Source: Candidatus Tectimicrobiota bacterium (GTDB taxonomy: Bacteria; JACPSX01). Taken from it: a stretch of DNA of 18,980 nt. Where the stretch lies: NCBI GenBank assembly GCA_016193065.1, contig JACPSX010000038.1:1-18980 (forward strand), written 5' to 3'. Position numbers and translations under genes: made by a program. The notes below the pieces were generated by a model. It ran no database searches. It was not told where the DNA came from and saw only the letters and a program-made list of their open reading frames with translations. Below, piece after piece: positions 1 to 12,218 of the stretch; positions within the stretch are counted from its first letter, which is position 1, and every line of letters starts with the position of its first letter.

Positions 1-23
1 TGAAAAATCGGTGCCAACAAGAC

Positions 24-89
24 GGGCTTCTTGAACAATGGATTGAAACGACCTTGCAGGTCGTCTCAATCCTTATAGGTTAGCCCCGT
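24..89 (-). repeat. Long imperfect inverted repeat at the 3' end of the zinc-ribbon gene
   Basis: The arms at 40-53 and 59-72 pair at 13 of 14 positions around a 5-base loop. An outer pairing follows (ACGGGCT at 22-28 with AGCCCCGT at 82-89), so the hairpin covers the stop codon and last codons of the gene ending at 80. No T-run follows the stem on the minus strand, so it is not a classic intrinsic terminator. The unpaired AAC (34-36) and GTT (79-81) on either side of the inner stem recall an attC fold, but the core heptamers do not fit the consensus. Terminator or processing hairpin is the default reading. Confidence 0.5.
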
Positions 90-967
90 TCGCGGTTGAG
101 CAACGTTGATAGCGCCTTGGTCAGTTCGGCCTCGTCCTTCAATGCTTGGGCGAGGCGCTCCGAGAGTTCGGAAAGTACGATACGGACGCTACTGGCGAGT
201 TCGAGACACTCCTCATCGGATCTGTCGTGAACCCCTTCACTCAAGGCACTATGCAACAGCGCAAGGGGGTTGTGCCCATTGATGAGGAGGCTCTGCGGGA
301 TAGCGGTCTTGACCATCGCGAGGGCCTTCGAAAACTGAGTCTCCGATACTGCCGCGTTGAGTTCCGAAATGGCGGTAGCGTCAGCGCCAAGTCTTTCAGC
401 GACTTTGATCACTTCGCCGATGATCCGATTCTTCTGGTTCTCGACAACACGTCGGTAGTAAATGAACGCGCCGACCCCAAGGCCCTGGTTCTCACAGCGT
501 CGACCCTTCAGGAACTCATCCCGGTCAGGTCCGATGAGCTTGATCAGTCTGGCGGGAGTAGGCGGCCCGAAGGTCGGTAGTTCACCGAACTTGTACCCCG
601 ATCCAGCCGCCTGCTGTCGCGCGTTCACCTTCGCAGCCAGCGAGAAGGTCTTCTGATTCTGTTGACAGTTCGAACAGCGGTAGGTCAGGTAAAAGAAGCT
701 GTAGTCGGTCAGAAGTCTAGGAGCATCGTCCCCCACGAAGCGAAAGAAGCGCGGGCCATTGCAGGACTCGTTCGTGCAGTGAAGCTGAAGCTCAGGCGTT
801 CGGATCTGGTCCACCTTCGTCCCGTAAAGACTGCTGTACCCCGCTTCGGCGAGATCCGGAACGCCGATGATCTGATTCGGCGGCGTGGACTCCAGAAACT
901 CGGCAAGGGGAAGGTGTATCGGCTCTCGCTTTACTGTGTTCGCGTCGTCGGCAGTAGGTGGCACCAT
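80..967 (-). CDS. Hypothetical protein with a zinc-ribbon-like Cys quartet (295 aa)
   Basis: I do not recognise this family. The visible feature is a CX4C...CX2C arrangement (Cys64, Cys69, Cys98, Cys101) typical of a structural zinc ribbon, followed by a mainly helical, charged C-terminal half (about 170-295) with no membrane segment or signal peptide, so it is probably cytoplasmic. The ATG at 967 is preceded by an AGGG about five bases upstream, which supports this start. An 82-bp repeat (987-1068) lies immediately upstream, and the gene ends inside a long hairpin. It stands alone and points the same way as all other genes in the left 8 kb. A nucleic-acid-associated or host-response role is possible but would be a guess. 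Confidence 0.7.
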   Translation of the reverse strand: MVPPTADDANTVKREPIHLPLAEFLESTPPNQIIGVPDLAEAGYSSLYGTKVDQIRTPELQLHCTNESCNGPRFFRFVGDDAPRLLTDYSFFYLTYRCSNCQQNQKTFSLAAKVNARQQAAGSGYKFGELPTFGPPTPARLIKLIGPDRDEFLKGRRCENQGLGVGAFIYYRRVVENQKNRIIGEVIKVAERLGADATAISELNAAVSETQFSKALAMVKTAIPQSLLINGHNPLALLHSALSEGVHDRSDEECLELASSVRIVLSELSERLAQALKDEAELTKALSTLLNRERG

Positions 968-986: not shown

Positions 987-1068
987 CTATTGAGTATACC
1001 GATCAGCATAGCACGGTTGCCGAAACGTCCCGCAACAGCCACGATTCTCTTGCCTTTCCAAGGAGTTA
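987..1068 (-). repeat. 82-bp dispersed repeat, copy 1 (pairs with 4699-4779)
   Basis: This stretch closely matches 4699-4779; both contain a CTATTGAGTAT start, a central CAGCATAGCACGGTTGCC and a GGGAGTT or GGAGTT end. Each copy lies about 20 bases upstream of the start codon of a minus-strand gene (967 and 4680). On the minus strand a TATACT sequence lies near the gene-proximal end, which could act as a -10 box, though no convincing -35 is at the right distance. Confidence 0.75.
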
Positions 1069-1131
1069 TCAAGAGATCTTCCACTTCCCCAACGGACGTG
1101 AAACACTGCCGTCATGGACGGCATAATCCAC

Positions 1132-1245
1132 TTATGGCTGCCGCAGGTTCGCCAACCCCGTCAATCCGTCTGCCGGACTACGAACCCCTCTCCCTCCTCG
1201 ATTCAAGACATGAGTGTAAATCGTCGTGGTCACGTCCCGATGACC
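1132..1245 (-). pseudogene. C-terminal remnant of an integron integrase (IntI-type tyrosine recombinase)
   Basis: Reading the minus strand from 1245 gives GHRDVTTTIYTHVL followed by NRGGRGVRSPADGL and a TAA stop at 1132-1134. The family pattern is the last catalytic box of tyrosine recombinases (the His of the GH motif and the nucleophilic Tyr of IYTH) followed by the THVL..GG.GVRSP.D tail that is characteristic of integron integrases such as IntI1, rather than of XerC or XerD. One residue is missing between TT and IY compared with the IntI1 pattern STTMIYTH. Everything upstream is lost: the match stops about 17 bases before the MITE-like element that begins at 1263. It is a non-functional stub of about 37 codons. 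Confidence 0.75.
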
Positions 1246-1262
1246 CGACGAAAAGGGCGAGG

Positions 1263-1540
1263 AGGGGACGTTGTTTCCGGGTGGACTTAACGATATCGCT
1301 CAAGACCCGGCAGATCATCGGATCGAGCCGCCCGGACAACCGCGGAGGTTGTCACCCCCAGAAATCAAGGAACTTGTGCTCCAGGATTCTCCATCTTGCC
1401 GATGGCGAGTTGGCAAAACAGCCTCCTTCTCCGAAAAAGAGGCTGGGTCCCGGGGGCATCCAATCTCGACTGTCTGGTCATGCCCTCTCATTCCCCCAAG
1501 GTGGTGAACCTGTCAAGTTCATGCAGAAACAACGTCCCCT
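1263..1540. mobile_element. MITE-like element, copy 1
   Basis: The ends are perfect inverted repeats, GGGGACGTTGTTTC at 1264-1277 and its complement at 1526-1539, with imperfect pairing continuing about 15 bases further inward (GTGGACTTAACG against ATGAACTTGACA). The interior aligns almost completely with 2584-2850; the main difference is about 11 extra bases near 1410-1425. No transposase is encoded, so it is non-autonomous. It abuts the integron-integrase stub and may have truncated it. No clear target-site duplication is visible. Confidence 0.8.
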
Positions 1541-1561
1541 ATCGCGCGCCGACAATTCAAT

Positions 1562-1788: not shown

Positions 1789-2082
1789 TTAGAGCCTGCC
1801 CAGCCAATACTCAGGCCGGCGTCGTTGGTGTGCCACAGCCAGAACTTGAACAACCTCGCCGACCTCTCGGTACAAGATAGTGTATGGAAAGCGTTGCAGT
1901 GTGGCTCGCCGAATGTCCGGGCGCCGCTCTACTGGGTAACGATGCGGGGCCTGGCACACGTTCTCCATGGCAGACTCAAACTCAGCCAAATAGGAAGCAC
2001 CAAGACCTGGTTGCCTCGACTCGTAGTAGGCGACGGATTCGAGATGCTCTGCCTCCGCCGCTGTGTGAAACTCGTAGTTCAC
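1789..2082 (-). CDS. ParE/RelE-family toxin of a type II toxin-antitoxin pair (97 aa)
   Basis: The protein has the plasmid-stabilisation (ParE/RelE) fold pattern: an N-terminal strand (NYEFHTAAEAEH), a helical hairpin with YYESRQPGLGASYLAEFESA, and a C-terminal sheet with RRATLQRFPYTILYRE and VLAVAHQRRRPEYW. RelE members cut ribosome-bound mRNA and ParE members poison gyrase; sequence alone does not decide, though the long N-terminal helix pair fits ParE slightly better. Length is normal for the family. The start overlaps the antitoxin stop by 4 bases (2079-2082), implying translational coupling. The Arg-rich C-terminus is intact and no frameshift is seen, so it may be active. Confidence 0.9.
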   Translation of the reverse strand: MNYEFHTAAEAEHLESVAYYESRQPGLGASYLAEFESAMENVCQAPHRYPVERRPDIRRATLQRFPYTILYREVGEVVQVLAVAHQRRRPEYWLGRL

Positions 2083-2303
2083 CGGAGGAGCGCCCGAGCC
2101 TTACGCCTGACTTCTTCGGCCGGGATCGGCTGCACCTCGCCTCGATCAATCTCCCGCGCGCGCCGCTCCGCTTCGATGAGCCATGATTCTCTAATTTGTT
2201 CCTCCGAAAGCGACTCAAGGCTCAAGAGAAGCTTCTGTGCAAGCTTGGCACGGTCTTCCGGCGACAGGTTAAGCGCTTCCTGTTCAATTGCCGTCAAATC
2301 CAT
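2079..2303 (-). CDS. Antitoxin of the addiction-module component family (74 aa)
   Basis: This is a short, highly charged helical protein with the LSPEDRAKLAQKLLLSLESL pattern typical of the putative addiction-module antitoxin family (unstable antitoxins paired with ParE/RelE toxins). The C-terminal part (residues 45-74), rich in Arg and Glu, would wrap the toxin. It lies directly upstream of the toxin gene with a 4-base overlap, the usual antitoxin-first order. A GAGGTGGAG stretch just upstream of the ATG at 2303 is a good ribosome binding site. It probably autoregulates the pair, but no operator could be identified. Confidence 0.88.
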   Translation of the reverse strand: MDLTAIEQEALNLSPEDRAKLAQKLLLSLESLSEEQIRESWLIEAERRAREIDRGEVQPIPAEEVRRKARALLR

Positions 2304-2584: not shown

Positions 2585-2850
2585 GGGGACGTTGTTGCCG
2601 GGTGGACTTAACGATATCGCTCAAGACCCGGAAGATCGTCGGATCAAGCCGCCCAGACAACCGCGGAGGTCGTCCCCCCCGGAAACCTAGCAACCTGGGC
2701 GCCAGGATACCCCATCCTGCCTATGGCGAGACCTCCTTCTCCGAAAAAGAGGCAGGGTCCCGGGGGCATCCAATCTCGACTGTCTGGGCATGCCCTCTCA
2801 TCTTCCCCAAGAAGTGAACCTGTCAAGTTCATTCAGAAACAACGTCCCCT
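2584..2850. mobile_element. MITE-like element, copy 2
   Basis: This is a near-duplicate of 1263-1540. The left end is GGGGACGTTGTTGCC (one mismatch to copy 1) and the right end at 2836-2849 is a perfect complement of the copy 1 terminus. It is about 11 bases shorter in the interior. It carries no transposase. It sits just downstream of the AT-richer gene 2935-3681. Confidence 0.8.
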
Positions 2851-2934
2851 CGCGCTGCAAGCATCAAAAAGCAATTATGCAGGCCTGATCCTTCATTCCT
2901 TATAGGTTATCTGCTATCGCGGACTTTCATCGCT

Positions 2935-3681
2935 CTATAGAAACTTAAGGTAATCTATGTATCTAACTTTATAGCCATAGGCTTCAATGCCGTCTTCCAA
3001 TATATGCAAGAATGCGGCAAAATCTTCCGCTTCTCCGACCGAAAAGGCGGGATGCCTATAACGTCGCCTATCTTCATTAAGAGGCTTCTGCAAACATCTG
3101 CTTCTGAAAAGAGCACCTGATCTATTTCTCCCCAGTACCAGGCCAACGTCTTGATCAAAAAATTCCAGCATCGCATTCTGTAACAGTTTCTCTCCTTCTC
3201 CCGTGGTGATACTGACCCCTGAATCAAGAAGCAGAACAACATCCACGACAAAAGGAACAACTCTGTTGAGAGCCGAAGCCAAAAAGTTTCCTTTGGAGAC
3301 ATACCTGACGCTGTGGGGAGATGATTCGAGGAATAAAATACCATTGTCTCTGCAATACTGCATTATTTTCTCCTTGTGGGGGTGTGCGGAATAACATACA
3401 CACCAAGTGCTGATTCTTTTGGCAGTAAGATCGCCAATTAACTGTGAATCTCGTGAGTGATGTAAGCCGTGGTGCTCTGCGATGTTCTTGGCTATTATGG
3501 TACGTACCAGCGCACAACTTGCAAGAGTGAGACAAGCAGAATCGTGGCTTTCCGACTGAACTAAAACTACGGAGCTTAAGAAAGGGAGCATCAATTGTGA
3601 GATGCGCTCCTTCGTGTACGGCGGGTTGTCGTCATAGATGATCTCCTTTTGTTCCCTTCTTAGGAAGTCGAACAACCCCAT
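2935..3681 (-). CDS. Hypothetical protein, AT-richer orphan gene (248 aa)
   Basis: I do not recognise this protein. It begins MGLFDFLRREQKEI; this ATG is preferred over one ten codons upstream because GGAG lies 9 bases before it. There is no signal peptide; one moderately hydrophobic stretch (RVVPFVVDVVLLLDSG, about residues 138-153) is probably a buried strand rather than a membrane segment. Several Cys residues (near 51, 56, 92, 94) show no clear metal motif. Codon use is visibly AT-richer than all neighbours, which suggests separate acquisition. An attC-like inverted repeat lies just upstream (3715-3801), and a CAGATAAC identical to its core lies about 20 bases after the stop. This is what an integron cassette gene would look like. 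Confidence 0.7.
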   Translation of the reverse strand: MGLFDFLRREQKEIIYDDNPPYTKERISQLMLPFLSSVVLVQSESHDSACLTLASCALVRTIIAKNIAEHHGLHHSRDSQLIGDLTAKRISTWCVCYSAHPHKEKIMQYCRDNGILFLESSPHSVRYVSKGNFLASALNRVVPFVVDVVLLLDSGVSITTGEGEKLLQNAMLEFFDQDVGLVLGRNRSGALFRSRCLQKPLNEDRRRYRHPAFSVGEAEDFAAFLHILEDGIEAYGYKVRYIDYLKFL

Positions 3682-3714
3682 GATCTGAATCTCCATGCGG
3701 AAGAGCTGCAATGG

Positions 3715-3801
3715 CAGATAACGGCGCGGCGCGCCAGAGCAGCCAGTTGTTCGTAGGTTCCTATCCTCAGAACTCTATGCGGTCGCCCGGACGCTTATCT
3801 G
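3715..3801 (-). other. Candidate attC-like recombination site (imperfect inverted repeat)
   Basis: The ends CAGATAA (3715-3721) and TTATCTG (3795-3801) are exact complements, and the pairing continues imperfectly inward (GCG, CGG, CG, CC matches), giving an 87-bp site within the normal attC size range. On the minus strand it lies 28 bases after the lipoprotein stop and about 35 bases before the next start, as expected between cassettes. The right core reads GTTATCT, which departs from the GTTRRRY consensus, and the left core has G for the final C. It is a candidate only. Confidence 0.3.
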
Positions 3802-3828
3802 TTGCGAGCCCCGTTCTATTCACCGCGA

Positions 3829-4680
3829 CTACCTGACGACAGGAACCAAGTCTATCTTGTTGCCTGGTATTTCGCCGTCAGGCCAACTAATGACGACCAG
3901 TTCGTAGTGGTGGTAGTCTCGGGGTAACGCCCCTTTGTTGACTGTTTCGCTCACCAGGAGTCCGGTAGCTACATCGCGAACAAACGATGAAATGAAGACT
4001 ACCTTACCGTCCTCATAGCAGTACTCTTCGCCCGAAAAACCCCAAGGACGTTCACTCCACGTCTGAGAAATGACCAGACGGCTGAAATCCTTTGCCAACT
4101 GTGATGACACTGTGCCTTTGGGTTTTCCGCCGCTCAGGGCCACCAGTTTAATGTTCTTCGTTTCCGCAACCCTTTTGCCTGTTGTCAGGTCGTAAGTCTC
4201 GACGCGGGGAATCCCCAAACGAAGATCGGCGTCTTCATTCTGGAAGATGTACCGTGTTTCCCACCGTTGGTCCAAGGTGGCCTTCCGAATCTGAGCCCCT
4301 TGCCCCGTGAAGCGGAAGCGGGCCACGATGGAGCACCGCCGGCTTCCTTCGCATGGGAGGTCAAACGTAACCCTTAATCTTCGCTCCCGATCTTCGTCAA
4401 ACAATTCCGCCCCGTGAGCTACGGCGAAAGGTTCCCCGTTCTCGACAGTCCTGAATTTGGCCTCCGAGGCGATGTCATGCCCAACGTCTCCACCATACGA
4501 ATATGTTACCGAGATGGTGGGTGCAGAAGCGATAGAACTTCCCGGTGTCCTGGCAACTGCATGACCGCTTGTCTTCTTGTGATCACCAGAAGCCGTCTTT
4601 GTATCCTCGGTGCAACCAGCAACGACAAGAACTGCGAATAGGAGGGCGCATGCCAGCCTTCTCAGCAGGGCTTTCATCAT
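3829..4680 (-). CDS. Putative secreted lipoprotein of unknown function (283 aa)
   Basis: The N-terminus is a classic lipoprotein signal: a basic start (MMKALLRRLA), a hydrophobic core, and the lipobox VAGC with Cys23 as the lipidation site. The mature protein begins with a Ser/Thr/Lys-rich linker and then a mainly beta, soluble domain with no recognised family, including two Cys (GSRRCS and DLPCEG) that may form a disulfide. Release to the outer membrane or periplasm is expected. The start is supported by GGAGGATA just upstream of the ATG at 4680, although the second Met is equally possible. A dispersed repeat lies directly upstream (4699-4779) and an attC-like site downstream, so it could be a cassette gene. 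Confidence 0.75.
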   Translation of the reverse strand: MMKALLRRLACALLFAVLVVAGCTEDTKTASGDHKKTSGHAVARTPGSSIASAPTISVTYSYGGDVGHDIASEAKFRTVENGEPFAVAHGAELFDEDRERRLRVTFDLPCEGSRRCSIVARFRFTGQGAQIRKATLDQRWETRYIFQNEDADLRLGIPRVETYDLTTGKRVAETKNIKLVALSGGKPKGTVSSQLAKDFSRLVISQTWSERPWGFSGEEYCYEDGKVVFISSFVRDVATGLLVSETVNKGALPRDYHHYELVVISWPDGEIPGNKIDLVPVVR

Positions 4681-4698: not shown

Positions 4699-4779
4699 CT
4701 ATTGAGTATGCTGGTCAGCATAGCACGGTTGCCAAAACTTCCCACAACAGCCCCGCTTCTCTTGCCCTTCCAGGGAGTT
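4699..4779 (-). repeat. Dispersed repeat, copy 2 (pairs with 987-1068)
   Basis: See 987-1068. This copy lies 19 bases upstream of the lipoprotein start. CATACT replaces TATACT at the putative -10 position, and TTGGCA lies 19 bases further upstream, so a weak promoter carried by the repeat is conceivable. Confidence 0.75.
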
Positions 4780-5143: not shown

Positions 5144-5488
5144 TCAGGGAACAAACATTTCCTGCAGAACCGCCAGTACTGAAGCCACCGCGCTGGGTGC
5201 TAAGCGTCCCAATGGTCTCACCAATCGCTCGGTGTCAACCGTGCGTAACTGGTCGACTGCAACGAATCCCGCCCGCCCCTGAAAGCGGCATCGAACGCGC
5301 CATGGATAGGCACGTCCTCCCGTTGTCATAGGGGCGACAATTACTGTGCGAAGATGATGATTCAATTCGTCAGGAGAAACCACGAGGCAGGGACGCGTCT
5401 TGCGAATTTCGCTGCCGCGCGTGGGATCGAGCTGGACCAGGTAAACCTCGCCGCGAAACGGGGTGTCCCGCTCTATCGCCACTCCCAT
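5144..5488 (-). CDS. mazF: MazF/PemK-family mRNA interferase toxin (114 aa)
   Basis: The protein has the diagnostic MazF pattern: FRGEVYLVQLDPTRGSEIRKTRPCLVVS (split here at Pro22), the GSEIRKTRP loop with the conserved Arg, then VIVAPMTT with the catalytic-region Thr, and VAVDQLRTVDTERLV near the C-terminus. Family members are sequence-specific endoribonucleases that cleave free mRNA and are neutralised by the upstream antitoxin. Length is normal and no defect is visible. The start at 5488 overlaps the mazE frame by 16 bases, which implies coupled translation. A pair of REP palindromes lies 66 bases downstream and may serve as the transcript end. Confidence 0.93.
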   Translation of the reverse strand: MGVAIERDTPFRGEVYLVQLDPTRGSEIRKTRPCLVVSPDELNHHLRTVIVAPMTTGGRAYPWRVRCRFQGRAGFVAVDQLRTVDTERLVRPLGRLAPSAVASVLAVLQEMFVP

Positions 5489-5724
5489 TCCTCTTCGTCA
5501 AACCGCGTCGTTGTCGGCGGGTCAAGAAGCCGGTCGTCGCCCTGCTTCCGCATCCGCCGGGCTGCAGCCGCCCAACCTGCCCGAGGTCGGGCCGCTCTGC
5601 GTATCACAATGCGCCCAGGCTCGGCTTGCAGTTCGACTTCGTCCGGGAGCTGAGATTCCTCCAACAGCACCTTGGGGAGGCGTATACCGCGTGAATTACC
5701 GATCCGCACAATGCGAGTCTTCAT
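5473..5724 (-). CDS. mazE: MazE-type AbrB-fold antitoxin (83 aa)
   Basis: The N-terminal half is a textbook SpoVT/AbrB swapped-hairpin DNA-binding domain (KTRIVRIGNSRGIRLPKVLL, residues 2-21, then the beta segment to residue 47). The C-terminal half (residues 48-83) is an extended, Arg- then acid-rich tail ending DEEEWEWR, which would occupy the MazF active groove. It is the first gene of the pair. GAGGTG seven bases upstream of the ATG at 5724 is the ribosome binding site, and a good promoter lies just before it. Autorepression through the AbrB domain is expected from the family. Confidence 0.92.
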   Translation of the reverse strand: MKTRIVRIGNSRGIRLPKVLLEESQLPDEVELQAEPGRIVIRRAARPRAGWAAAARRMRKQGDDRLLDPPTTTRFDEEEWEWR

Positions 5725-5833: not shown

Positions 5834-6250
5834 TCAATGATTGGCGGGGCGGGCGGACACGAACCACTCCTTGCCCTGACGCCCGGGGGCCGAGTTCGAT
5901 GGCTCGTACGCCGTGAGGAACGAAAAGAAAGGGCCGAAGAGGCGCTCGATTTCGTCGCGCCGGACCGGGAAAGGTGGGCCGCCCGTGCCATCCCGCACCG
6001 GCCAGAAGTTTGCCAGAAAGTAACCTCCGGGTTTCAGGATCTGGAGAACCATCTGGACATACTCGGGGCGCCTCTTGGGATAGCCCAGCCGGGAGAAGAG
6101 TCAGGGGGGGCGGATCTTTTTTCAAGTGAGCGACCAGTGGAGGTGTACCCGCACCCAGCTCCTAGTGGTCCTTATTGCTGTTGTAGAGAGTTTCCCAGAA
6201 CTACGGGTCACTCACAGAAGATCCGGGAGGGTGAGCAACTGTCTATTCAC
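5834..6250 (-). pseudogene. Deleted, degraded copy of a TPMT-type methyltransferase
   Basis: The sequence aligns with 8184-8818 over its whole length but lacks about 218 bases of the middle, including the SAM-binding motif I segment. A stop also replaces the Trp of the DHW motif (TAG on the minus strand), with a second TAG a few codons from the start. The C-terminal frame is the better preserved one: QILKPGGYFLANFWPVRDGT, then FGPFFSFLTAYEPSN and GRQGKEWFVSARPANH. The start region keeps the GTG that overlaps the end of pdxA in the other copy. Different lesions in the two copies show independent decay after duplication. It lies upstream of mazEF and cannot make an active enzyme. Confidence 0.85.
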
Positions 6251-6461: not shown

Positions 6462-6749
6462 CTAAGCTGCCGACAATCGCACGACGCGCAATTTCTTCCG
6501 GCGCCGCTCCGCCCGCCACAGATCATACTGCACCTGCTGGTTGAGCCAGCTTTCCGCCGTCGTATTGAAGGCAATCGACAGGCGAACGGCCATCTCAGGG
6601 CTGATCCCAGCGCGGCCGTTCAGGATGCCGGACAGGGTCTTGCGGCTCACGCCCAAGGCCTTTGCGGCGGCGGTCACACTCAAACCCAACGGCTCCAGAC
6701 ACAACTTTCGGAGCACTTCACCAGGGTGGGGAGGATTGTGCATCAACAT
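6462..6749 (-). CDS. higA: HigA-family antitoxin, XRE-type helix-turn-helix (95 aa)
   Basis: The N-terminus [21 protein letters not shown] and the helix-turn-helix [22 protein letters not shown] (split between residues 25 and 46) are diagnostic of HigA antitoxins. The tail [17 protein letters not shown] is also typical. HigA binds and neutralises the ribosome-dependent RNase HigB and represses the operon. The first ATG (6749) is preferred because GAGG lies nine bases upstream. Its toxin partner should be encoded just upstream, but only the last codons remain (6759-6794), so this antitoxin is an orphan. It may still act as a repressor or protect against a related HigB. Confidence 0.93.
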
Positions 6750-6873: not shown

Positions 6874-7194
6874 CTAGGGCATCAACTGCACCAGTCGGTC
6901 ACGGACCGAATCGCGAAACAACACTTCGATCTCAGCGATGTCGTCGTGCAACACATCCACGATTAGAAATCCTTCTTCCGGGTGAAGTGCAATCGTGCGG
7001 TGCCCTTTACCCCAAGGCCCTTTCGGATGCGGCAACGCGTACATTGTGGCGCAAAAATCGTCTCCGCACCGACAGCGGTCAACCACGTTCAAGCTGCTCA
7101 CTCTTTGCGCCAAGGCAATCTCGCCCTGGGCGTCGAGAAGTCGCGCCAGTTCAGCAGCCAACTCTGGAAACTGTTCTGCCAAACTGAACTTCAT
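6874..7194 (-). CDS. Conserved-looking small protein with CRCGDDFC motif (106 aa)
   Basis: I recognise the general pattern (an N-terminal helix EQFPELAAELARLLDAQGE, then VVDRCRCGDDFCATMY with Cys41, Cys43 and Cys48, then GHRTIALHPEEGFLIVDV) from conserved hypothetical proteins of soil bacteria, but no function is known to me. The CxC....C cluster could bind a metal. The DVLHDDIAEIEVLFRDSVRDRL tail would form a beta-strand and a helix. It is soluble and probably cytoplasmic. The start ATG at 7194 has only a weak AGGTGCC upstream. It lies between the higA remnant locus and the PIN pair, on the same strand; whether it belongs to a toxin-antitoxin system is unknown. Confidence 0.75.
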   Translation of the reverse strand: MKFSLAEQFPELAAELARLLDAQGEIALAQRVSSLNVVDRCRCGDDFCATMYALPHPKGPWGKGHRTIALHPEEGFLIVDVLHDDIAEIEVLFRDSVRDRLVQLMP

Positions 7195-7285
7195 GCTTAG
7201 GCACCTTTTCTAAGTCGTGAGTCGTTGTCCTAGGCTCCAGGTGAGCCGCGAGAGCTTTGCGAGCGGAGCTCAGCCGCCGCCTTTG

Positions 7286-7501
7286 TTAGCCGGTCTCGGG
7301 ACTCCGTACCTTCTTTATTGCCGCCAGGATCTCATCAAGCGTCAGATCCTTGAACACGTCTTCGCGTTCCTCCGTGTAGTCTCCGTAACCTGTCGTGAAC
7401 TGGTTCAGAAACCGCACGGTGTCTACTATGCCCATCTCCTTAGAGAGCAGGTCAATCGCGTGTCGCGTAATCTCACTCAAGGGTTTTGCCTGGACATTCA
7501 C
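7286..7501 (-). CDS. Probable antitoxin or partner of the PIN-domain protein (71 aa)
   Basis: This small, soluble, charged protein (LSEITRHAIDLLSKEMGIVDTVRFLNQF in two helices, then GYGDYTEEREDVFKDLTLDEILAAIKK) resembles conserved partners found next to PIN-domain toxins. Its start overlaps the PIN gene stop by 4 bases, so it is translated from the same message. The order is toxin first, the reverse of most VapBC pairs. No AbrB, RHH or Phd DNA-binding motif is evident, which leaves open whether it acts by masking the nuclease, by targeting it, or otherwise. The stop codon TAA lies in GGCTAACAAAGGCGG, which resembles the left half of an attC site, but no matching right half was found. Confidence 0.75.
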   Translation of the reverse strand: MNVQAKPLSEITRHAIDLLSKEMGIVDTVRFLNQFTTGYGDYTEEREDVFKDLTLDEILAAIKKVRSPETG

Positions 7502-7938
7502 TGCGTCACCTCCGCAATCAGCTCAAGCGGGGACACCACTTTGGTCTGTCCCGTATCCACCGCTTTGGCTCGTTTCAGAAATTGATCGTCGCATGTACAG
7601 AAGTAATCGGCCTTTGCTGCCACCGCCGAGGCCAGATGGAGCGCATCAACGGGTTTGATCCCTTCCGGTTGTAGTGCTCGTGCGCGTTCTTCCACTTGGT
7701 TGTCGATGGGAATGAACACTGTCGCTTTGCTTAATACTTTGAGGGCATACTCTTTTCGTACTGGATGCGGGTTGCGCTCGAGCTCGAATACAAGCGTATC
7801 GGAGGCCATCAACTCCACTTGCCCGGCTTCACAGAGCGCCAGGACCCCCAAAATAGCTTCCGCTTCTACTGCAATCCGAGGCTTCGTCTTGGTGTCAAGT
7901 GGGCGCTGAATGCTGCACATGTCGAGGTAAATCTTCAT
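7498..7938 (-). CDS. PIN-domain ribonuclease, VapC-like toxin (146 aa)
   Basis: The protein begins MKIYLDMCSIQRPLD with the first catalytic Asp at residue 6 and carries the other PIN acidic residues in place: Glu52 (FELERNP), Asp98 (GIKPVDALHLASA) and Asp117/118 (YFCTCDDQFLKRA). PIN domains are metal-dependent RNases; toxin members cut tRNA, rRNA or mRNA. The length and motif set are complete, so it is probably active. It is co-transcribed with the small partner downstream. No strong promoter was identified in the 245 gene-free bases upstream (7939-8183), although TAGACT near 7994-7999 on the minus strand is a possible -10 box. Confidence 0.9.
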   Translation of the reverse strand: MKIYLDMCSIQRPLDTKTKPRIAVEAEAILGVLALCEAGQVELMASDTLVFELERNPHPVRKEYALKVLSKATVFIPIDNQVEERARALQPEGIKPVDALHLASAVAAKADYFCTCDDQFLKRAKAVDTGQTKVVSPLELIAEVTQ

Positions 7939-8183: not shown

Positions 8184-8818
8184 TCACAGCCGATCGGCGG
8201 GGCCGGCGGACACGAACCACTCCTTGCCTTGGCGCCCGGGGGCGAGTTCGATGGCTCGTACGCCGTGAGGAACGAGAAGAAGGGGCCGAAGAGACGCTCG
8301 ATCTCGTCGCGCCGGACCGGGAAAGGTGGGCCGCCCGTGCCATCCCGCACCGGCCAGAAGTTGGCCAGAAAGTGTCCTCCGGGTTTCAGGATCTGGAGAA
8401 CCATCTGGACGTAATCAGGGCGCCTCTTCGGATCGATCGCGCAAAAGCAGGTGTATTCCCAGATCACGTCGAAGAAAGCAGGATAAATCTCCGGCAACTC
8501 GAAAATATCCCGGCATTCGAAGCGGAGGCGCCCGTCCCGATCCCCGCCGATCTTCTTGGCCTCGTTGATCGCGGTCTCGGAGAAGTCAAATCCCCAGACC
8601 TCATAACCCAGCCGGGAGAAGAGCCGGGCGTCGTGGCCGCGCCCGCACCCGAGAACGGCAACCTTGCCTTTCGAGGGTGGATCTTTTCTTAGGTGAGCGA
8701 CCAGTGGGGGTGCGGCGGCACCCAGCTCCCAGTGGTCCGCATCGCTGTGGTAGAGGGTTTCTCAAAATCGCTGATCGCTAACGGATAATTCTGAGAGTGA
8801 AGGATTGTTCGGATTCAC
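8184..8818 (-). pseudogene. TPMT-type SAM-dependent methyltransferase, nonsense and frameshift
   Basis: A GTG at 8818 overlaps the pdxA stop as GTGA, which implies translational coupling. The frame then reads FWETLY with TGG changed to TGA (8762-8764, codon 19), continues intact through HWELGAAAPPLVAHLRK, motif I KVAVLGCGRGHDARLFSRLG, WGFDFSETAI and FDVIWEYTCFCAIDP to LKPGGHFLANFWPVRDGTGG, and shifts frame near 8250. There a base is missing compared with the copy at 5834-6250. Correcting both gives about 211 codons ending at TGA 8184-8186, normal for this thiopurine-methyltransferase-like family. Family members methylate S, Se or Te compounds or unknown small molecules. The frameshift lies in a GC homopolymer and could be a sequencing error; the nonsense codon is less easily explained that way. 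Confidence 0.85.
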
Positions 8819-10039: not shown

Positions 10040-11140
10040 ATGGAGACTGGGAGGCTGATGGGTATGGCCCGTTCACTTCTCCACGGGCGCAGGCGAGATT
10101 GTCTTCAGGCTCCAGCGAGAGCGGCAGTGCTATTGCTGGCGGCGTTTCTGCTGGCCCCCGCCTTGCTCGCGGCGGCTCCTGCCGGCACGGGCCTGCAGGC
10201 CGTCAGCGACGGGGCCAGGAAAGAAGGGACGCTCAAGCTCTACGCGCCTTCCACGCTGGGCCCCAGAGGAGCCCACCTCCTTCAGGAAGGAGTAAAGAAA
10301 AAATACGGGGTGGATCTGAACATCGCTTACACCTCCTCGGGCTCCATGACCCGGGACGTGGCGAAGGTGGTCACCGAGCTGGCCGCCGGCGCCCGCCCCA
10401 CCTGGGACATAATGCTGGTTACGGACGCCCACTACATTACTCTCGTGGAAAATGATTTTTTGGAGCGTGCCGATTACGGAGCGCTGGGCATCGATCCCAA
10501 GGCCATTGTCTATGACGGCGCCGCCGTGGCTTATGCCACCCAGTTCGTGGCTCCGGCCTACAACACGCAGCTCATCAAGCCGGCGGACGTTCCCAAGAAA
10601 TGGGAAGATCTGCTGGATCCGAAATGGAAGGGAAAAATCGGGGTCAGCACGGCCACTCACCACTGGGGCCGGCTCGCCCAGGTCTGGGGGGATGAGAAGA
10701 CGACCAAGTACGTGCGGGCCCTGGCCGAGCAGAAGATCGTCAGAGCACGGCTCCCTGAAGTCTATACCCGGCTTCAGTTGGGGGAAGTGCTGATTGCCGC
10801 GACCATGACGGACAGCCACATCGACGAGGCCAAGGAGAAGGGGGCGCCCATCGGCTTTATTGAAGCGGTTGAACCGATCATTGCCACCCACTACCTGGCG
10901 GCGCCTCTCAAGGGAGCGGAGCACAAGAATGCGGCGTTGCTCCTCGTCGCGTTCCTGGTGAGCCCGGAGGGCCAGGCGATCTGGGGCAAGGAGCAGGGTC
11001 AGACTTCCATGTTTGCCAAGGGGAGCCCGGCTTATAACTATGTGCAGAAGAAGAACGCCGTCTCGCTGGAGAAGAAATTCGCCTTGGGACGGTTTGAGGA
11101 TCTCACGAACAAGTACGGGAAGCTTCTGGGCTTCCGGTAA
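10040..11140 (+). CDS. Periplasmic solute-binding protein of an ABC importer, copy 1 (366 aa)
   Basis: The N-terminus is a long export signal (Arg-rich start, then AVLLLAAFLLAPALLAAAPA, cleavage after about residue 48). The mature protein has the two-lobed fold pattern of the Fe(3+)/thiamine/putrescine-type binding proteins (family 1-like): DGARKEGTLKLYAPS, TWDIMLVTDAHY, PKKWEDLLDPKWKGKIG and LLLVAFLVSPEGQAIW. It captures the substrate in the periplasm for the permease encoded at 12315. AGGAGG nine bases upstream of the ATG at 10040 supports the start, though inner Mets (residues 7 and 9) are possible. It is the first gene of the operon and is highly similar to the next protein. The paired Tyr of FbpA ferric sites is not evident, so iron is not assured. 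Confidence 0.88.
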   Translation: METGRLMGMARSLLHGRRRDCLQAPARAAVLLLAAFLLAPALLAAAPAGTGLQAVSDGARKEGTLKLYAPSTLGPRGAHLLQEGVKKKYGVDLNIAYTSSGSMTRDVAKVVTELAAGARPTWDIMLVTDAHYITLVENDFLERADYGALGIDPKAIVYDGAAVAYATQFVAPAYNTQLIKPADVPKKWEDLLDPKWKGKIGVSTATHHWGRLAQVWGDEKTTKYVRALAEQKIVRARLPEVYTRLQLGEVLIAATMTDSHIDEAKEKGAPIGFIEAVEPIIATHYLAAPLKGAEHKNAALLLVAFLVSPEGQAIWGKEQGQTSMFAKGSPAYNYVQKKNAVSLEKKFALGRFEDLTNKYGKLLGFR

Positions 11141-11165
11141 GCAACCGGCTTTGGGAGGGATAGTC

Positions 11166-12218
11166 ATGATGGGGCGGCTAGTTGCATTTTTTGCCTGCGC
11201 CGTTTTCGCCGCGGGAGTTCCGGGATTCGTGGAGGACGCGCCTGCGGCAACGGCCGCCAAAGTTTCTCTGCAATCGGTCATCGACGGGGCCAGGAAGGAG
11301 GGGGTCCTGGAATTCTACGCCTCCGCGGCCATGGGGCCTGAGGGGGGGCGCGCCATCAAAGACGCGCTCAATGGCAAGTTTAGGCTCAACCTGGATCTCA
11401 AGTTCACCGGCTCGGGTTCCATGACCCGGGATGTTGCCAAGGTCGTTACGGAGTTGTCGGCCGGGGCCCCTGCTACCTGGGACATCATGGTGGTCAACGA
11501 CGCGCACTACGCGACCCTGGTGAATAACGAGGCCCTGGACTCGGTGGATTGGGGGGGGAGTTTCGGAATTGAACCCAAGGCGATCTTTTATAACGGGCTG
11601 GCGGTGGCTGTCGCTACGCAGTTCGTGTCCCCGGCCTACAACAATCAACGGGTCAAGCCGGCCGACGCCCCCAAACGGTGGGAGGATCTCCTGGATCCCA
11701 AGTGGAAGGGGAAGATCGGTGTTTCCTCGGCAACTCACCACTGGGCCCGCCTGGCCCAGGTCTGGGGGGACGAGAAGACCACCAAGTTTGTGGAAGCGCT
11801 CGCCAAGCAAAGCCCCGCGCTGGGACGCGTTCCCGAGGTTTACACCCGCCTGCAGTTGGGGGAAACCTTGGTGGCGGCGACCATGGTGGATGATTACATC
11901 GACCAGGCCAAGAAAACCGGGGCTCCCGTGGTGTTCATTGACAATCCCGATCCGATCATTGCCACGCACTTCCTGGCCGCTCCTCTCAAGCGCGCCAAGC
12001 ACAGAAACGCCGCCATTCTCATAACAGCCTTCCTGGCCAGCCCGGAGGGGCAGGCGGTGTGGGCGAAGATCATGGGGCAGACGTCGATGTACTTCCAGGG
12101 AACCCCCGCCTACCAATTTGCCCAGAAGAAAAACGTGGTGCCTCTCGACTACAAGTTCGCCCTGACCCAGTTAGAGGACCTGAGCAGCAAATACGGCAGG
12201 CTGATCGGATACCGGTAA
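11166..12218 (+). CDS. Periplasmic solute-binding protein of an ABC importer, copy 2 (350 aa)
   Basis: This is a close paralogue of the preceding protein, aligning end to end without large gaps. Identical blocks include GSMTRDVAKVVTEL, KWEDLLDPKWKGKIGVS (written here from Lys to Ser), TRLQLGE and VSPEGQA or ASPEGQA. The export signal is MGRLVAFFACAVFAAGVPGF. The frame is open further upstream, but the ATG at 11166 with GGGAGGG six bases before it starts right at the signal peptide. It lies 25 bases after the first copy. Tandem duplication with divergence of the N-terminal and loop regions suggests two related ligands or two affinities delivered to one permease. Confidence 0.88.
   Translation: MMGRLVAFFACAVFAAGVPGFVEDAPAATAAKVSLQSVIDGARKEGVLEFYASAAMGPEGGRAIKDALNGKFRLNLDLKFTGSGSMTRDVAKVVTELSAGAPATWDIMVVNDAHYATLVNNEALDSVDWGGSFGIEPKAIFYNGLAVAVATQFVSPAYNNQRVKPADAPKRWEDLLDPKWKGKIGVSSATHHWARLAQVWGDEKTTKFVEALAKQSPALGRVPEVYTRLQLGETLVAATMVDDYIDQAKKTGAPVVFIDNPDPIIATHFLAAPLKRAKHRNAAILITAFLASPEGQAVWAKIMGQTSMYFQGTPAYQFAQKKNVVPLDYKFALTQLEDLSSKYGRLIGYR

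Follow-up and report, generated by a model that had tools for sequence, protein, structure and literature searches.

A short minus-strand reading frame near one end of an 18,980-nt stretch of Candidatus Tectimicrobiota DNA (here called the window; contig C73 of its assembly) ends like an integron integrase and lies in a region with several toxin-antitoxin genes. Is this frame the remnant of a real integron, and were the genes around it once cassettes?

The window contains the 3' end of an integron integrase gene

The last 43 codons of an integron integrase gene (intI) are found at the break marked by a palindromic repeat:

1132..1263, minus strand: intI 3' stub, 43 codons, with IntI homology from about 1245 to the stop codon at 1132-1134
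1262..1541, minus strand: MITE-like palindromic element, 280 bp, at the intI truncation point, with terminal inverted repeats (ends 83% complementary)
2585..2851, minus strand: second MITE-like copy, about 86% identical and in the same orientation, past the ParE module

The stub frame (1263-1132) reads SSPFSSGHRDVTTTIYTHVLNRGGRGVRSPADGLTGLANLRQP and ends in a stop codon, with IntI homology starting at about 1245-1250. When it was compared with NCBIfam by hmmscan, the integron-integrase model TIGR02249 matched with an E value of 6e-8, and a second integron-integrase model, PRK15417, matched with 5.5e-5, whereas a XerC/D-type model reached only 0.25. In NCBIfam, the E value for IntI is thus more than six orders of magnitude lower than that for XerC/D. 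The initial annotation had placed an IntI-type tail at 1132-1245, and that range is correct. It had also named XerC/XerD or phage integrases as the best matches that would speak against its reading; the outcome was the opposite, with IntI profiles matching best. A tblastn search with complete IntI found this tail as its sole match in the window.

The catalytic His (in GH) and Tyr (in IYTH) are both retained, as had been proposed, although their spacing is one residue shorter than in relatives. The stub has TTT-IY where the aligned relatives L072 and L019 have TTTMIY, so that one codon has been lost. The RHR box and all N-terminal sequence are absent from the stub, as is the region of the additional domain. 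Such a stub could not be active. A sister tail in the genome, on C131, is 74% identical in amino acid sequence to the stub, and stub and downstream segment together are 84% identical to C131 in DNA sequence.

IntI homology ends a few bases from the MITE-like element at 1262-1541. That element, near which the stub had been described as cut off, is real, and its second copy lies at 2585-2851. The genome holds 16 matches to it, clustered on C233, C207, C73, and C292. Its copies encode MPRKSRLDAxGTLHHV-like N termini that resemble the start of a Y1 transposase. A Y1/REP-associated transposase may be their source, but the encoded stretch had no Pfam or NCBIfam match, and the two Y1 transposase loci of the genome do not carry the repeat. 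Exchange between MITE-like copies could perhaps have removed the rest of intI.

On C233 (L067, 7082-14261) and C207 (L068, 7896-12163), the palindrome is repeated about 1 kb apart, in one orientation per contig, between toxin-antitoxin genes (BrnT/CopG, AbiE, and MazF). The AbiE pair on C233 reads opposite to the other genes. The regular spacing and co-orientation beside toxin-antitoxin genes on these two contigs suggested that the repeats might be attC sites, but we rejected this idea. Their boxes are reversed (GTT...AAC, not RYYYAAC...GTTRRRY), and their length varies by internal deletion.

A recurrent segment after the stub is a putative attI

Directly behind the intI stop codon lies a segment that recurs in the genome and faces a different gene each time. 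Its features in the window are as follows:

987..1131, minus strand: putative attI region, 145 nt directly after the intI stop, with the crossover point between 987 and 986
1044..1072, minus strand: candidate cassette promoter Pc, TTGATA-17-GAGAAT (pattern match only)
80..967, minus strand: 295-aa gene that comes first after attI, a candidate first cassette, ATG 20 nt past the attI boundary
4699..4779, minus strand: 5'-truncated attI copy without intI, 88% identical to 987-1067
3829..4680, minus strand: 283-aa gene with a lipoprotein-like N terminus, ORF starting 19 nt past the truncated-attI boundary

The segment is identified as attI through its position, its recurrence, and its boundary. 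A sequence model (R3) found eight copies in the genome. Seven could be aligned (two on C73, here C73a and C73b for the window's first and truncated copies; one on C131; two on C48, C48a and C48b; and one each on C187 and C233), and the eighth, on C181, is weaker. The seven share a 3' boundary, immediately preceded by CTCAATAG, beyond which unrelated genes begin. Their mean pairwise identity is 66 to 74% in the 60 nt before this boundary and 25 to 28%, which is chance level, in the 60 nt after it. Crossover in attI is expected between G and TT. G stands at the 3' end in five of the seven copies and is followed by TT in three. The window's first copy reads G and then CC, with TT lost; its truncated copy shares the 3' boundary and continues with TT (R3 extends this copy to 4788).

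In contrast to the common 3' end, the upstream junctions differ. C73a and C131 run into an intI tail; C48a, C48b, and C187 retain approximately the last intI codons only; and C233 and C73b retain none. The copies are 81 to 183 nt long (some are cut to 81 to 101 nt), about 80% similar, and dispersed over several contigs. On C187, the copy directly follows a methyltransferase gene, and 5' truncation with a constant 3' end is seen across the truncated copies. The attI consensus carries a promoter-like TTGACA-17-GAGAAT, by pattern match a candidate cassette promoter.

On C187 (L070), the last intI codons and attI come immediately after the methyltransferase-like gene, and 3839-4433 of this contig matches window positions 8192-8785, in a SAM-methyltransferase-like gene (85% over 595 nt). 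Fragments of this one gene are also repeated within the window (5839-6081 and 8192-8433, 93%). On C131 (L072), the last 204 bp of an SLC13-like transporter gene flank the integron relic as a direct repeat (7571-7774 and 4299-4502, 81%). The 81 nt before the second copy of this repeat (4503-4583) recur at window positions 3-83 (89%), after the first gene behind attI.

The genome contains many intI relics and some attC sites

Fragments matching TIGR02249 lie on ten contigs. N-terminal pieces, read in frame, are on C49, C98, and C41; a middle piece is on C145; and C-terminal tails are on C49, C131, C188, C48, C103, and C73. The tenth contig, C273, reads VFPAMRIYIDRETGQRRRHHFHESVL at 1777-1887 behind an in-frame TAG and aligns to profile positions 206-242. 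This is the region of the additional domain, for which the initial annotation had pointed to relatives of the stub. It had also proposed a search of the rest of the genome for attI and an intact intI. attI turned up, in the eight copies above, whereas no match to TIGR02249 exceeded the family cut-off in this 86%-complete genome, only fragments. Because the assembly is a fragmented MAG (2.9 Mb in 294 contigs), an intact intI could be absent from the assembly only. Our count of about ten relics is one of places, not of ancestral integrons, and some could belong to a single locus split between contigs.

To search for attC, we used a covariance model (R1) built from twelve attC sites of other organisms' integrons, with this genome excluded. 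R1 found six sites at E<0.01 (C131, C196, C188, C48, C7, and C49); on C131, C188, C48, and C49, the strand that carries the site also has an intI relic 0.4 to 2.6 kb upstream. A retrained model (R2), based in part on this genome's own sites and the source of most attC found, added two sites on C62, along with weak sites on C187 and C48. The weak site on C48 comes directly after attI and one ORF (C48b: attI 3583-3725, ORF 3751-4128, attC 4145-4241). The two on C62 (2932-3032 and 5635-5703, minus strand) share an orientation, and with 2.6 kb between them they may form a small cassette array. The clearest relic is on C131, where intI tail (7394-7280), attI (7279-7137), a 116-aa ORF (7104-6754), and attC (6759-6669) can still be read in order.

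The window itself gave no attC with either model, even with filters off (best E values, 1.7 and 1.8), no CALIN (at least two clustered attC without intI), and nothing in Rfam. An attC-like stretch at 7156-7291, in which GGCTAAC contains a gene's stop codon, was unsupported by both covariance models. An R/L-box pattern search, used for candidate finding only, had no excess over shuffles (35 versus about 50), and TAACCTATAAGGA, considered as an attC half after three gene ends, occurs in those three copies only.

A related integron has the same layout

Among 84,980 species genomes, the best IntI tail was on CSP1-3 contig LDXQ01000044.1 (L080), with 72% identity. Its intI is near-complete, interrupted by a run of N. 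The region after it can be aligned with the window attI, with GTGCTAGGCTGAC-type repeats and an end in TCAAGAG followed by TT. The order on one strand is intI, attI, GNAT, attC (7129), ParE, attC (9500), a HicB-like gene, and attC (10650). Besides this main integron, the CSP1-3 genome has one further N-terminal intI relic.

In the window and on C131, the layout is likewise of the reverse type: intI, attI, and cassettes follow each other on one strand, with the cassettes 3' of intI. The position of attC relative to the intI relics on C188, C48, and C49 fits this layout. The 80 loci with the closest tails (L080 to L159) include 17 reverse loci (attC 3', in the direction of intI), 17 classical loci, and one mixed locus, in Acidobacteria, Planctomycetes, Nitrospira, Gemmatimonadota, and Deltaproteobacteria, among others, by a model (R2) that was trained on some of these same loci. 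Two of the 80, L113 and L148, are environmental-type intI genes on MAG contigs labeled Klebsiella pneumoniae, and these labels look doubtful.

Toxin-antitoxin genes and genes behind attI

The initial annotation counted four toxin-antitoxin modules beside the stub. Profile searches gave the following:

1789..2082, minus strand: ParE-family toxin (PF05016, E=9e-10)
2079..2303, minus strand: addiction-module antitoxin of the ParE pair (PF09720, E=7e-14)
5144..5488, minus strand: PemK/MazF-family toxin (PF02452, E=3e-29)
5473..5724, minus strand: MazE-like antitoxin (PF04014, E=5e-5; 23.6 bits, below the cut-off of 24.7)
6462..6749, minus strand: HigA-family antitoxin without a recognized toxin (TIGR02607, E=9e-33)
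7498..7938, minus strand: PIN-domain protein (PF01850, E=8e-10), with a small partner ORF without an assigned family at 7286-7501

The count of four is therefore roughly right. The ParE-type pair (1789-2303) and the MazEF-type pair (5144-5724) stand, the latter with MazE just under the Pfam cut-off; the HigA and PIN modules have one recognized member each. Farther along, at 10040-12218, two adjacent similar genes for substrate-binding proteins precede an ABC permease gene, an apparent tandem duplication.

Every attI copy has a different gene beyond its boundary, on the same strand. The first gene encodes an addiction-module antitoxin at C48a, with ParE behind it, BrnT at C233, and a 116-aa membrane-like protein at C131. 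In the window, neither the 295-aa gene at 80-967 nor the 283-aa gene at 3829-4680 matched a family above cut-off.

Discussion

The identity of the stub, the recurrence of attI with its boundary, the synteny with CSP1-3, and the attC sites elsewhere in the genome lead us to conclude that the stub is very probably the 3' end of the intI of a dead, fragmented reverse-type chromosomal integron, with attI adjoining. In the intact system, as gene order and established integron biology suggest, intI would have been transcribed toward attI, and cassettes would have entered 3' of it in the same direction. Cassettes would be circular, and IntI would join their attC, folded into a hairpin, to attI at a point between G and TT. 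This would put the cassette gene some 20 nt past attI, and its expression could come from a promoter that lies within attI (candidate, TTGACA-17-GAGAAT). We infer an order of decay in which intI kept only its last 30-odd conserved codons and the 280-bp palindromic repeat came to stand at the break, with the ParE module between it and the second copy. The window's attI has survived, with a gene still behind it. Such decay appears to have been repeated, leaving intI relics at about ten other places and seven other attI copies, some of 81 to 101 nt with the same 3' end.

Whether the toxin-antitoxin genes belonged to this integron is less certain. We consider it appreciably possible, though the less likely view, that they were never cassettes and that a repeat-rich region gathered stub, attI, and modules by chance or by exchange between MITE copies. 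The window has no attC, MITE-like repeats flank its ParE module, the toxin-antitoxin clusters of C233 and C207 coincide with MITE clusters, and the AbiE pair on C233 is oriented against its neighbors. However, a toxin-antitoxin gene comes directly first after attI at C48a and C233, and ParE and HicB-like genes lie among the attC sites of the CSP1-3 integron. Toxin-antitoxin systems are also among the commonest cassette functions (PMC8618304). The link between modules and integron that had been drawn beforehand is therefore reasonable, in view of the at least two attI copies that a toxin-antitoxin gene follows first. Since no attC is left in the window, a cassette origin of its own modules is unproven; they are probably former cassettes or neighbors of cassettes.

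The dispersed, 5'-truncated attI copies might be integrase products, half-sites that traveled with cassettes or received them at many places. We think this unlikely. If it is true, a single reverse integron spread capture sites with promoters, several of them in front of toxin-antitoxin modules, and lost its integrase afterward. The same pattern could also come from deletion alone, because only the attI end that faces a kept gene would be preserved.

It is more doubtful still that the 145-nt repeat is not attI but a mobile promoter or a transposable-element end that carries the last intI codons. Several copies have little or no intI, their upstream junctions vary, and the promoter-like motif is in their consensus. 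Yet the repeat follows the intI stop in both C73 and C131 and can be aligned with what lies behind intI in another phylum. Moreover, G precedes TT at its end in three of seven copies, a gene and a good attC come after the C131 copy, and no second repeated end was seen at the far side of the genes.

Least of all do we expect the stub to come from a XerC/D-like or phage-type tyrosine recombinase and to lie beside an ordinary intergenic repeat: GH...Y is common to all tyrosine recombinases, and the C131 tail, which is longer, reaches XerD (7e-5, against 4e-9 for IntI4, 2A3V, in the PDB) and PHROG integrases (3e-7), but the THVLNRGGRGVRSPAD tail is IntI specific in profiles, the stub has no PHROGs match, the repeat can be aligned with an integron attI region, and attC lie near sister tails.

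This case shows that attI can lead from a 43-codon fragment back to a real integron, one that attC-based searches would miss in the window. It also contributes a reverse-type integron whose alignable attI is common to this lineage and CSP1-3. A single genome with many dead integrons should be useful for studying how integrons are lost, how truncated attI sites arise, and whether toxin-antitoxin cassettes outlast the integrase.

The CSP1-3 integron is the closest comparison: it shares the nearest IntI tail, a similar attI region, the layout, and toxin-antitoxin cassettes. It differs from the window relic in its nearly complete intI, its three recognizable attC, and its being one main integron. 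Reverse-type chromosomal integrons are known in Treponema (PMC3607928), and in archaeal integrons attI is immediately downstream of intI (PMC9668308). As in those systems, intI is transcribed toward attI, with cassettes 3' in the same direction. In contrast to them, only relics are present here, many per genome, in a lineage without a close relative among those searched. The assembly yielded no 16S, and none of 24 named genomes closely matched its RpoB.

Decay of integrons is common. About one-third of intI genes are nonfunctional, and more than one-fifth of integron-bearing lineages have more than one intI (PMC2426708). The "pseudo-integrons" of that study resemble our case in their decayed intI and in numbering more than one per genome, but here about ten relics and eight attI copies are in one genome in which no intact intI was found. 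The delta-attI cassettes of class 1 and class 2 integrons (PMC12901181) are also shortened at the 5' side by variable amounts and keep the 3' core. The copies described here differ in being longer (81 to 183 nt), diverged to about 80% similarity, and spread over several contigs, with GTT retained in only three of seven. In Acinetobacter johnsonii, an integron is cut off at each end by a copy of one MITE (PMC3934969). Ours is likewise broken at a MITE-type repeat with two flanking copies, but the MITE is a different one, and the A. johnsonii example is a plasmid-borne resistance integron. The gene order was already known from Treponema and archaea; so many relics, and attI copies truncated at the 5' side, are less usual.
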